Shown here: one piece after another, positions 35,697-38,135 of the stretch
How the letters are laid out: each line of letters opens with the position of its first letter
Numbering within the stretch: the stretch's first letter is position 1
Assembly: GCA_029212785.1 (NCBI GenBank)
Contig: JARGOG010000025.1
Span: forward strand, 1 to 63,856
From: Thalassobaculaceae bacterium
Lineage (GTDB): Bacteria > Pseudomonadota > Alphaproteobacteria > Thalassobaculales > Thalassobaculaceae
Direction of reading: 5' to 3'
Length of the DNA stretch: 63,856 nucleotides
The notes under the pieces: model-generated
The model's input: the letters and a program-made list of their open reading frames with translations, nothing else
What the model was told of the DNA's origin: nothing
The model's database searches: none
Made by a program: the position numbers and the translations under genes

Positions 35697-36242
35697 ATGT
35701 TTTTAGCGAAATTGCAGGGATCACTGGAGAGGCCGAGAAACGGCGCGCGCATGCCCGAAAAAATCGACTTCTCCAAAGTGAGCTTTTTAATCGTCGATCA
35801 GAACAAACTGTCGACCCAGCTCATTCGCGACATCCTGGCCATGCTTGAAGTGAGCCGGGTCCGCAGCGTCACATCCGTGGAGCGCGCCCGCAACGTCATG
35901 CGCGGCGAGTCCGTGGATATCGTGATCACCGAGTATTACATGGAACCGGAGGACGGCATCGACCTTATCGAGTGGGTCCGGACCGGCATCGACTCGCCGG
36001 ACCGCATGATCCCGATCATCATGCTGACGGCCAATTCCGAGGAGGAATACGTCATGCGCGCGCGCGACCGCGGCGTGACCGAGTTCCTGGCCAAGCCCTT
36101 CAACGTCGAGGGGCTGTATCGCCGCCTTGTCTCGGTGATCGCCCGACCCCGCGCCTTCGTCAATATCGACGACTATTTCGGACCGGACCGGCGGCGCCGG
36201 CAGGTCACCTACGACGGTCCCGACCGTCGGCGGACCGACTGA
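35697..36242 (+). CDS. Receiver-domain protein with Glu at the phosphorylation site
   Basis: A 181-residue stand-alone receiver (163 if ATG 35751 is the start; neither has a clear ribosome binding site). Beta-1 FLIVDQN has only one of the two usual acidic residues (D34, then Q35). The expected phospho-Asp at the end of beta-3 is Glu79 (DIVITEYYMEPEDG). Conserved Thr111 (IMLTAN) and Lys133 (FLAKPF) remain. The C-terminus carries two GPDRRR-type motifs. Glu at this site cannot take part in normal phosphorylation and often mimics the active state. Its stop overlaps the start of the HPt-like gene (TGATG). Confidence 0.87.
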   Translation: MFLAKLQGSLERPRNGARMPEKIDFSKVSFLIVDQNKLSTQLIRDILAMLEVSRVRSVTSVERARNVMRGESVDIVITEYYMEPEDGIDLIEWVRTGIDSPDRMIPIIMLTANSEEEYVMRARDRGVTEFLAKPFNVEGLYRRLVSVIARPRAFVNIDDYFGPDRRRRQVTYDGPDRRRTD

Positions 36243-36736
36243 TGGCGCGTCGGGCCCAGATCATTCCGCCGCGTCCGGACCTGCGGCGCAAGGCGGTCAA
36301 TTACACCAAAGGTTTCGATCTCAAGCTTTCTCCGGCGATGGTCGAGAAGCTCGAGCAGGTTGTCCACAAGGCGCGTGACAACTTCACCACCGATATCGCC
36401 GGGCGTCTGGTCGCCATGCGCAAGGCCCTGCGCGAGATCGGCGAGGCGGAGGGCGGCGACAAGAGCGTCCTGGCTCTGATCTACGCGAACTCGCTGGAGA
36501 TCAAGGGGGCCGGCGGAACCATCGGCTACGATCTGCTCACGGCGATCGGCAAATCGCTGAACGATTTCGTCACGGGTCTCGGTGAACTCGACCGCCGGCG
36601 GACCGACATCATCGACCTGCATATCGACGCCCTCTATGTCGTGCTCGCCAACCGCATCACCGGGCGCGGCGGGCCCACCGAGGCCGCCGTGCTCAAGGCA
36701 TTCTCGGCGGTGCGGGCGAAGTTCAAGGATGATTGA
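36242..36736 (+). CDS. HPt-like protein lacking the phospho-histidine
   Basis: A 164-residue, mainly helical protein. The segment ANSLEIKGAGGTIGYDLL (about 82-99) aligns with the HPt motif HxxKGxxGxxG: Lys88, Gly89 and the later glycines are kept, but the His position is Leu85. Around it lie amphipathic helices (NFTTDIAGRLVAMRKALREI, IIDLHIDALYVVLANRI). HPt assignment is by pattern only. The TGATG overlap with the receiver gene implies tight translational coupling, so the two products probably work together, perhaps as a phosphorylation-independent pair. No histidine kinase lies nearby. Confidence 0.72.
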   Translation: MARRAQIIPPRPDLRRKAVNYTKGFDLKLSPAMVEKLEQVVHKARDNFTTDIAGRLVAMRKALREIGEAEGGDKSVLALIYANSLEIKGAGGTIGYDLLTAIGKSLNDFVTGLGELDRRRTDIIDLHIDALYVVLANRITGRGGPTEAAVLKAFSAVRAKFKDD

Positions 36737-36828: not shown

Positions 36829-37197
36829 ATGTCTGAGATCGACCCGCTGGATCGCCGCGCGCTTGGCGTGCTGTCGGAAACCGTCAGTGCCGAACTCGGT
36901 GCCGGCAGTATTGTGGCACGCGAGGTCAACCGGGCTTTCCGCTCCGGCCGCAGCGCCGATCTACGGACCGCCTCCGCTGCCTTCGACGCGTTGCCGTCCT
37001 GGCAGCGTTCCAGCATTGGTGACGACGCCAGCCGCCGGGCGCGGCGCCTGCGGGCCAAGCCGGCCGAGCCCCGGCGCACGCCGGTACGCGAGATTGATCG
37101 TGACACCGCGCGCGACTGGCGGGACCTGCGGGACGGGCAGGACAGGGTGGTGATTCCCTCGCCGCCACGCTTTCTCAAGCCACGGGTGACCCGCTGA
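36829..37197 (+). CDS. Uncharacterised 122-residue protein
   Basis: Not recognised. A soluble protein with a helical N-terminal half (DRRALGVLSETVSAELGAG, VAREVNRAFRSG) and a strongly basic second half (ARRLRAKPAEPRRTP, PRFLKPRVTR) that may bind nucleic acid or an acidic partner. GGGAAACGG lies just before the ATG. It follows the HPt-like gene by 92 bp on the same strand, possibly in the same transcript. No signal peptide or membrane segment. Confidence 0.6.
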   Translation: MSEIDPLDRRALGVLSETVSAELGAGSIVAREVNRAFRSGRSADLRTASAAFDALPSWQRSSIGDDASRRARRLRAKPAEPRRTPVREIDRDTARDWRDLRDGQDRVVIPSPPRFLKPRVTR

Positions 37198-37278: not shown

Positions 37279-37493
37279 CGAAGACCATGCCAGGGATAGC
37301 CGAACGACCTGGCAACCCGGCGTCGCTTGGAAGACAGTGGCCGGCATCCTCGACGCCTAGAACTAGGTGTGGCATAGGTCATAGACGGGTCGAGCCCGTG
37401 CGGTGACGATGCGAAGAAAGTTGGGGAGCGTTGGCGGATTTCCGGCTTTGAGCCGGCCCGCAGACGGCGCACCAGAACGTTAGGGTGATAGCG
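37279..37493 (+). promoter_or_regulatory. Hairpin-rich leader, possible cis-regulatory RNA
   Basis: Several perfect short stems lie in order: TGCCAGG/CCTGGCA (37288-37294 with 37308-37314), GGCGTCG/CGACGCC (37319-37325 with 37351-37357), CCTAG/CTAGG (37356-37367, competing with the former), ACGGG/CCCGT (37385-37399), and CCGGCT/AGCCGG (37442-37456). This exceeds what an ordinary 5' leader shows. It matches no riboswitch class I can name. Alternatives are a free small RNA or an attenuator. Confidence 0.4.
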
Positions 37494-38135
37494 ATGCGTG
37501 GCAGGAACACGGCAGCAGTCAATCAACAGCCGTCCGTCGTAGAGTATTTCGCGAAGGAATTCGCGCGCTTCCTCAATAACGTCCAGAACAATGAAGTCGA
37601 TTTCCTTGGATCGTTTCTGATCGAGAACGAGTGGGAGAACTACCGCAAGGACGCCGAGGAGGTTGTCGAGTCACTCACGCTGGCGGGTTTCGTCATCGTG
37701 CCGCGCTCCCCGACGGATGCGATGGTGCAGGCCGCCGATCAGACCCTGTCCAAGGGCATGATGGCCTCCGCGTCGCGTACCTATGTCAGTGCGGTGTGGG
37801 GCGCCATGGTCACCGAGTGGATCGAAAGCCGGAATTCGAACCTGATCCTGGATATCTTCTCGATGGCCCTGTCGCGGGCCTCCAGCCCGGGCAAGAAGGA
37901 TGCCGGCAAGTTCGATTCCTCGTTCCAGCGCTTCCGCAAGCAGAGCCAGGACATCATGGCGAGCTTGGAGAAGACCGGCTTGGCCATCTGCCCGGATGAG
38001 GCGGCGCCGAACATGGTGGGTGCCGGCGTGTCGGAGACGGCGGAACACCGCTCGCGCACCAACCAGCAGATCGGTGCGGATCCGACCTACATCGCCAAGC
38101 TCTACGAGAACATGGTGAAGTCCCGCCCGGCTTGA
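37494..38135 (+). CDS. Uncharacterised 213-residue protein behind structured leader
   Basis: Not recognised. A soluble, mostly helical protein without signal peptide: VVEYFAKEFARFLNNVQNNE, WENYRKDAEEVVESLTLAGF, SAVWGAMVTEWIESRNSNLI, SLEKTGLAICPDEAAPN. Aromatic and Asn/Gln content is higher than in neighbours and composition is well balanced, so it is clearly coding. ATG 37494 is preferred because AGGGTG lies about 7 nt upstream; GTG 37485 is an alternative. A long hairpin-rich leader precedes it, which implies post-transcriptional control. It is convergent with the small basic-protein gene at 38172. Confidence 0.72.
   Translation: MRGRNTAAVNQQPSVVEYFAKEFARFLNNVQNNEVDFLGSFLIENEWENYRKDAEEVVESLTLAGFVIVPRSPTDAMVQAADQTLSKGMMASASRTYVSAVWGAMVTEWIESRNSNLILDIFSMALSRASSPGKKDAGKFDSSFQRFRKQSQDIMASLEKTGLAICPDEAAPNMVGAGVSETAEHRSRTNQQIGADPTYIAKLYENMVKSRPA

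Follow-up and report, generated by a model that had tools for sequence, protein, structure and literature searches.

A linked receiver and HPt-like gene pair of Alphaproteobacteria with both phospho-residues replaced and a predicted c-di-GMP-binding tail

The Cle proteins of Caulobacter are single CheY-like receivers with a C-terminal tandem [YF]xGP[DE][RK]R tail, the arginine-rich (ARR) motif, which binds c-di-GMP; their activity needs c-di-GMP, not phosphate (Nesper et al. 2017, PMC5677366). Binding to the flagellar switch is a further trait of the Cle proteins. By its residue numbers, CleD would carry a glutamate where CleA has its phospho-Asp, and this glutamate is dispensable there, as the E70A variant is functional (PMC5677366). 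The text of that paper lacks the term "HPt" and has "phosphotransfer" in its references only. Bacterial pseudo-receivers were reviewed by Bourret et al. (2025, PMC12632262). That review calls the switching of these proteins a mystery and a major unknown, gives loss rates of 2.0% for the receiver Asp and 0.9% for the Hpt His, and describes Asp-to-Glu pseudo-receivers as common in plants and in fungal Rim15p. HmrX of Caulobacter is presented (PMC11481889) as a stand-alone CheA-P1-like fold in a pathway linked to c-di-GMP.

Here we analyzed a stretch of 63,856 nucleotides (the window) from a Thalassobaculaceae bacterium (contig JARGOG010000025.1), in which a receiver gene overlaps an HPt-like gene and the pair has neither the phospho-Asp nor the phospho-His of a canonical two-component phosphorelay. 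In plants, AHP6 is a pseudo-HPt that lacks the His and is used in signalling; it and the Glu-bearing plant pseudo-receivers resemble the window pair in having a His-less HPt and an Asp-to-Glu replacement, respectively. They differ from it in having no linked gene pair and a separate origin, and to our knowledge neither carries an ARR tail. CheA P1 and CheY, for example in the complex of R. sphaeroides CheA3 P1 with CheY6 (PDB 3kyj, 3kyi), are among the best fold matches of our two models; unlike them, the window pair has both phospho-residues replaced and no kinase in the chain.

The window receiver shares the Cle architecture and the Glu of CleD, and differs in adjoining a His-less HPt-like gene and in belonging to a type in which Glu is kept throughout (E-type, the class defined by Glu at the phospho-Asp position). 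Like bacterial pseudo-receivers (PMC12632262), it lacks the Asp and the second metal-binding acid; set against them, the window partner is null too, and a Thr/Ser, a Lys and an aromatic residue at K-3 are kept in 39/39 E-type receivers. HmrX, which resembles the window partner by its published description, differs from it in retaining a candidate His81 (PMC11481889). The receiver class is already described, as are, separately, pseudo-receivers and HPt domains that lack His; a conserved, linked, double-null pair with a c-di-GMP-type tail was not found in searches of an open-access library, outside which most subscription papers lie.

The two genes of the window

The features of the locus are as follows.

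35751..36242, + strand: pseudo-receiver gene (conserved start MPEK; CheY-fold model)
35796..35801, + strand: Asp16-Gln17, second metal-binding acid lost (from sequence)
35931..35933, + strand: Glu61, codon GAG at the phospho-Asp position (Glu in 39/39 E-type pairs)
36063..36065, + strand: Arg105 in α4, spaced as the Arg needed in CleA and CleD (Arg in 39/39)
36093..36095, + strand: Lys115, the conserved receiver lysine (Lys in 39/39)
36174..36230, + strand: tandem ARR tail YFGPDRR...YDGPDRR, predicted c-di-GMP site (from motif)
36240..36244, + strand: TGATG overlap of stop with start (from sequence)
36242..36736, + strand: HPt-like gene without phospho-His (Hpt matches of the family; CheA-P1-like fold model)
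36494..36508, + strand: Leu85-Glu-Ile-Lys88-Gly89 replacing His-x-x-Lys-Gly (no His in 39/39)
36829..37197, + strand: conserved downstream gene, context (relatives in 14/18 loci compared)
37485..38135, + strand: second conserved downstream gene, context (relatives in 13/18 loci compared)

The open reading frame at 35697-36242 encodes 181 aa and matches Pfam Response_reg at 4.5e-19. In an alignment of 15 relatives, the proteins begin with M(P/A/T)EK, corresponding to position 35751; the start at 35697 used in an earlier, sequence-only reading lies 54 bases (18 codons) further upstream. Its Glu79 at the phospho-site and its reduced acidic pocket D34-Q35 are therefore renumbered Glu61 and D16-Q17; both observations stand, as does the TGATG overlap that it reported between the two genes. 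Within the genus, this one-base overlap occurs in the four loci L001 and L003-L005; in other loci the two genes are neighbours, but such an overlap is not the rule. Neither downstream gene (36829-37197 and 37485-38135) matches Pfam.

The receiver is recognised as such with key catalytic residues missing, through Glu61 and Gln17, which makes it a pseudo-receiver as that term is used in PMC12632262. The second metal-binding position is acidic in 2/39 E-type receivers, where ten different residues occupy it, compared to 46/46 rows with an Asp-receiver and a His partner (D/H rows); the acid pair is broken in 37/39 E-type receivers. Other parts of the domain are held: Ala94, Thr/Ser93 and the aromatic residue at K-3 are kept in 39/39, and 34 columns are invariant over the 39 rows. 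As read from this alignment, E-type receivers appear to have been released from metal-dependent phosphorylation with the remainder of the switch retained. The window proteins, together with named relatives, served as input for structure prediction. The window receiver model (pLDDT 80.7, with the tail below 50) matches CheY among solved structures with a Z score of 21.4 and 1.5 Å over 128 residues.

In the partner, codon CTG (36494-36496) places Leu85 where the paralogues have the His of HDLRG, and Lys88-Gly89 are retained, just as the first description of the locus had stated. Partners of E-type receivers have His at this site in 0/39, Lys at +3 in 39/39 and Gly at +4 in 37/39; the His is replaced by Leu in 26, Phe in 8, Arg in 2, Tyr in 2 and Ile in 1. 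The flanking residues also distinguish the two kinds, with Ile at +2 and Lys at +3 in E-type partners and Leu/Met and mostly Arg at these positions in the His-bearing kind. With both phospho-residues and half of the metal-binding acid pair lost, ordinary His-Asp phosphotransfer is not expected of the pair.

The window HPt-like protein gave no match to Pfam at E≤1, none at E≤5 when searched as a family member, and nothing when run alone against Pfam and NCBIfam; it does not reach the gathering score of Pfam Hpt. At the family level, 14 of 16 members matched Pfam Hpt at E≤5 (best 1.1e-4). A profile search of the PDB returned CheA entries at 1.7e-4 to 1.5e-3. The top sequence match of that search was 6ff6 (BRIC1, at 2.1e-10), whose entry title describes a novel repeat protein; it was set aside. 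The model (pLDDT 79.7) found CheA P1 as its best Foldseek match at E 9.7e-3, with none at or below 0.001. Structural comparison gave Z scores of 14.3-15.1 with CheA P1 (2.3-3.0 Å over 120-126 residues), matches that include P1 in complex with CheY6. The non-HPt repeat protein 6ff6 scores equally high, Z 15.0, at a worse rmsd of 4.7 Å, and a designed four-helix bundle matches at Z 13.0; the comparison tool warns that helical bundles below about Z 13 may share a common arrangement only. Because the model matches CheA P1 and the sequences match Hpt and CheA, the predicted HPt fold of the partner is well supported. The second protein is modelled as an HPt/CheA-P1 bundle, and the non-HPt structure that would have refuted the sequence-only reading was not obtained.

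Conservation and origin of the double loss

The orthologous pair is present in 16/36 genomes of the order, and in every one of these a paralogous Asp/His pair is found as well (L002, L020-L028, L030, L170-L174). A survey of the class (386 genomes, with at most nine candidates scored per genome) and a search through named genomes added Nisaea, Ferrovibrio and other members to the family; the survey placed the E-type pair in at least 19 of the 386 genomes. The survey added 29 new loci among the matches listed, and 60 further stretches were taken with the best scores first; the sample thus favours high-scoring, hence E-type, loci, and absences in it are not proven. Removal of identical rows reduced 146 HPt matches to 130 distinct ones. 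Two short contig-edge fragments were counted only in a 51-row tally.

Among the 130 distinct HPt-like proteins, 39 have a Glu-receiver as their neighbour, and every one of the 39 lacks His. Where labels exist, the 39 E-type pairs fall under 15 genus labels and 8 family labels within the Alphaproteobacteria. Relatives therefore keep Glu and non-His with synteny, and the local mutation that the earlier reading had named as its refutation is not borne out. Rows assigned to an Asp-receiver have His in 46/62; in three of the 62 the receiver lies downstream (L089_1152, L096 and L126, the last two more than 1.1 kb away). The figure of 62 refers to HPt rows rather than receivers, a few of which serve more than one row. 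His partners stand beside Asn-receivers in 5/5 rows and beside the Ala-receiver in 1/1. The 23 remaining rows are unclassified, 20 with no receiver detected nearby and three with a gap at the phospho-site. The combination of Glu in 39/39, which defines the class, with His in 0/39 is, by these counts, more than chance would give. Comparison of four genomes of the genus shows purifying selection on both genes, with pN/pS values of 0.10-0.15 for the receiver and 0.18-0.29 for the partner.

Trees were calculated from 101 receiver rows, with the phospho-column removed, and from 125 HPt rows, leaving out rows of 120 residues or fewer. The Glu-receivers form one clade of 39 rows (support 100/99), which was recovered in 100% of 200 bootstrap trees, and the E-type partners fall in one clade of 49 rows of the HPt tree (100/98). 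The latter includes 10 His-less proteins with no adjacent receiver detected, nine of them from one family label. As the Glu-receivers make up one clade and their partners lie in one clade, the trees indicate that Glu arose once, at the same time as the partner's loss of His or later, and was then kept across families. A single origin would also mean that the co-occurrence amounts to one evolutionary event. A narrower order of events, loss of His before Asp, was suggested by L054, which combines an Asp-receiver with a Leu partner and neighbours the E clade in the HPt tree; it was rejected, as L054 lies elsewhere in the receiver tree and its branches are long.

Outside the Glu clade, the rows with an Asp-receiver and a non-His partner require six changes on the receiver tree, at least three of which are forced by well-supported branches. 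The trees thus point to loss of His beside Asp-receivers on more than one occasion, and in this HPt-like family the His appears to be unusually dispensable. Co-replacement does not hold as a strict general rule outside the Glu clade, where 16 of 62 Asp rows lack His and six Asn/Ala rows have it.

Several further loci carry unusual combinations. The 16 His-less Asp rows have Leu (6), Arg (3), Trp (2), Asp (2), Asn (2) or Gln (1) at the His position (L052, L054, L089, L096, L100, L107, L108, L121, L122, L124, L126, L130, L135 and L137). The reverse half-replacement, an Asn-receiver (once Ala) with a His partner, is found at L056-L058, L099, L133 and L136. Nine extra His-less HPt-like genes, with no adjacent receiver detected, form an expansion in Ferrovibrio-like genomes (family label f84; L079, L081-L084, L086-L088).

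The arginine-rich tail and c-di-GMP

The receiver tail was overlooked in the earlier reading. It consists of a tandem [YF]xGP[DE][RK]R motif, YFGPDRRR followed by a second GPDRR-like copy, at residues 142-148 and 154-160, and ends with Asp163, which several relatives lack. Two strict copies of the motif occur in 25 of the 39 E-type receivers and a single one in the other 14; arginines 147-149, 159 and 160 as well as Gly156 and Arg134 are present in 39/39. Published residue numbers, used in place of an alignment, give 86 residues between the phospho-site and the first ARR arginine in the window receiver, CleA and CleD alike, and 44 residues between the phospho-site and the α4 arginine in the window and CleA compared to 43 in CleD. 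By motif, the window receiver is a Cle-type protein, and c-di-GMP binding is predicted for it. Arg147 is also present in 46/46 D/H receivers, which have the same tail as the E-type. The tail therefore predates the double loss and is no marker of it on its own, nor is it, being shared with D/H relatives, proof of phosphate independence.

The genome of the window holds nine matches to the ARR pattern, four of them outside receiver-like frames; the reversed pattern also gave four matches, so these four look like chance. Four receiver-like frames of this genome carry at least one ARR copy. Two of these lie beside an HPt or HPt-like gene (the window pair and L002), one is fused (L189), and one (L140, 1492-1983, - strand) follows a hybrid kinase that, by our reading of its sequence, appears to end in an HPt-like stretch.

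Within the order, GGDEF matches number 9-16 in 15 of the 16 genomes that have the pair (3 in G011) and 0-5 in 19 of the 20 that lack it (9 in G009); genome size and common descent confound this association. FliM was found in 15/16 genomes with the pair and in 10/20 without, and is missing from G011, which is 84% complete. A strict tie of the pair to flagella was therefore rejected, and a motor role is not supported, genome size and descent again confounding the comparison.

Proposed mechanism and alternatives

We consider it probable that the window receiver is a c-di-GMP pseudo-receiver of the Cle type and docks on its phosphate-dead HPt-like neighbour, with c-di-GMP replacing phosphorylation. 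The residues and their conservation, the single origin, the motif, the predicted folds, the synteny and the fusions are what the data show; we infer the ligand binding, the docking, the direction of control and the output of the pair. The tandem ARR tail would bind c-di-GMP as in CleD, a function suggested by its motif, and binding would fold the tail onto the α4-β5-α5 face through Arg105 and switch the receiver. Glu61, with Lys115 and Thr93, may hold the former phospho-site in one state; the fact that Glu is dispensable in CleD yet kept in the E-type argues that it has a role beyond the Cle model, which counts against the proposal. The HPt-like protein would dock on the receiver as CheA P1 does on CheY, as a binding partner rather than a phosphate donor, a step suggested by the retained residues, the co-inheritance of the two genes and the fused relatives described below. 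c-di-GMP might then gate or redirect the receiver/HPt-like complex, and the output could, speculatively, be motility or surface behaviour. The suggestion in the sequence-only reading of a phosphorylation-independent interaction module fits this picture, in which the interaction itself is deduced. Its other suggestion, a fixed state, appears less likely because the conserved tandem c-di-GMP-type tail would make the receiver a switch.

The main rival to c-di-GMP-gated docking is an AHP6-like competitor, in which the dead HPt-like protein, possibly with the dead receiver, would bind the partners of the paralogous Asp/His pair and damp that phosphorelay, with c-di-GMP secondary. It predicts docking too and differs in the partner and in c-di-GMP control. 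The Asp/His ARR pair found in all 16 pair-bearing genomes of the order, the Lys and Gly kept at +3 and +4 beside the lost His, and the plant precedent are all consistent with such competition. Yet one dead member would suffice for it, and here both are dead, linked and co-inherited; moreover, the differing residues beside the HPt site (Ile and Lys in place of Leu/Met and mostly Arg) hint at separate partners, and we regard the competitor as unlikely. A fixed-state scaffold, in which Glu61 mimics phospho-Asp, the receiver stays permanently on with the HPt-like protein bound constitutively, and expression is the only control, would account for the strict conservation of Glu with Lys115 and Thr/Ser93 and has parallels in the Asp-to-Glu pseudo-receivers of plants and Rim15p (PMC12632262). 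It has, however, no need for the tandem ARR tail and α4 Arg that are invariant in 39/39, and CleD, which has Glu, remains ligand-controlled; we therefore judge this scaffold to be quite improbable.

Phosphorylation might also proceed by another route, through a different His of the partner or a different acceptor in the receiver. A His at residue 127, in the numbering of the window protein, is present in 32/39 E-type partners and could serve as a surrogate, but no His column is invariant among them (the next best reaches 19/39), the same His is equally common (43/46) in rows with the canonical His, and the acid pair is broken in 37/39, all of which make this route highly improbable. Decay of both genes as drifting duplicates without function would explain the loss of both phospho-sites and the metal pocket; it is scarcely credible given the purifying selection, the 34 invariant receiver columns and the synteny over 15 genus labels.

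Returning to c-di-GMP-gated docking, a broader reading is that the second messenger took over a whole CheA-P1/CheY-like couple. ARR receivers paired or fused with HPt-like domains, with c-di-GMP-gated docking, would then form a widespread alphaproteobacterial family, whose Glu/non-His lineage would be an end point that relays binding without phosphate. We find the arguments for and against this generalization evenly balanced. The findings on the pair also suggest that ARR-type c-di-GMP receivers commonly act together with HPt-like partners, of which we found no report in the open-access library searched or in the text of PMC5677366. In this pair a conserved pseudo-receiver comes with a candidate ligand and a candidate partner, both named; a canonical paralogous pair in the same cell can serve as a control, natural one-chain relatives exist, and the genus has cultured members.

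In the one-chain relatives, a single open frame spans the receiver, the ARR tail and the HPt-like domain; such frames lie at L093, L095, L098, L118, L124 and L130 and at L180-L185 and L189. The L180-L183 frames align Asp at the receiver site and have no His at the HPt site. L189 lies in the window's own genome (G000:C49, 1760-2992, - strand); in its weak alignment the receiver phospho-site is Asn and the HPt column is a gap. A different arrangement is seen in Nisaea genomes (L175-L179), where an HPt domain is followed by a partial receiver in one frame without ARR, and these frames adjoin further receivers and HPt genes.
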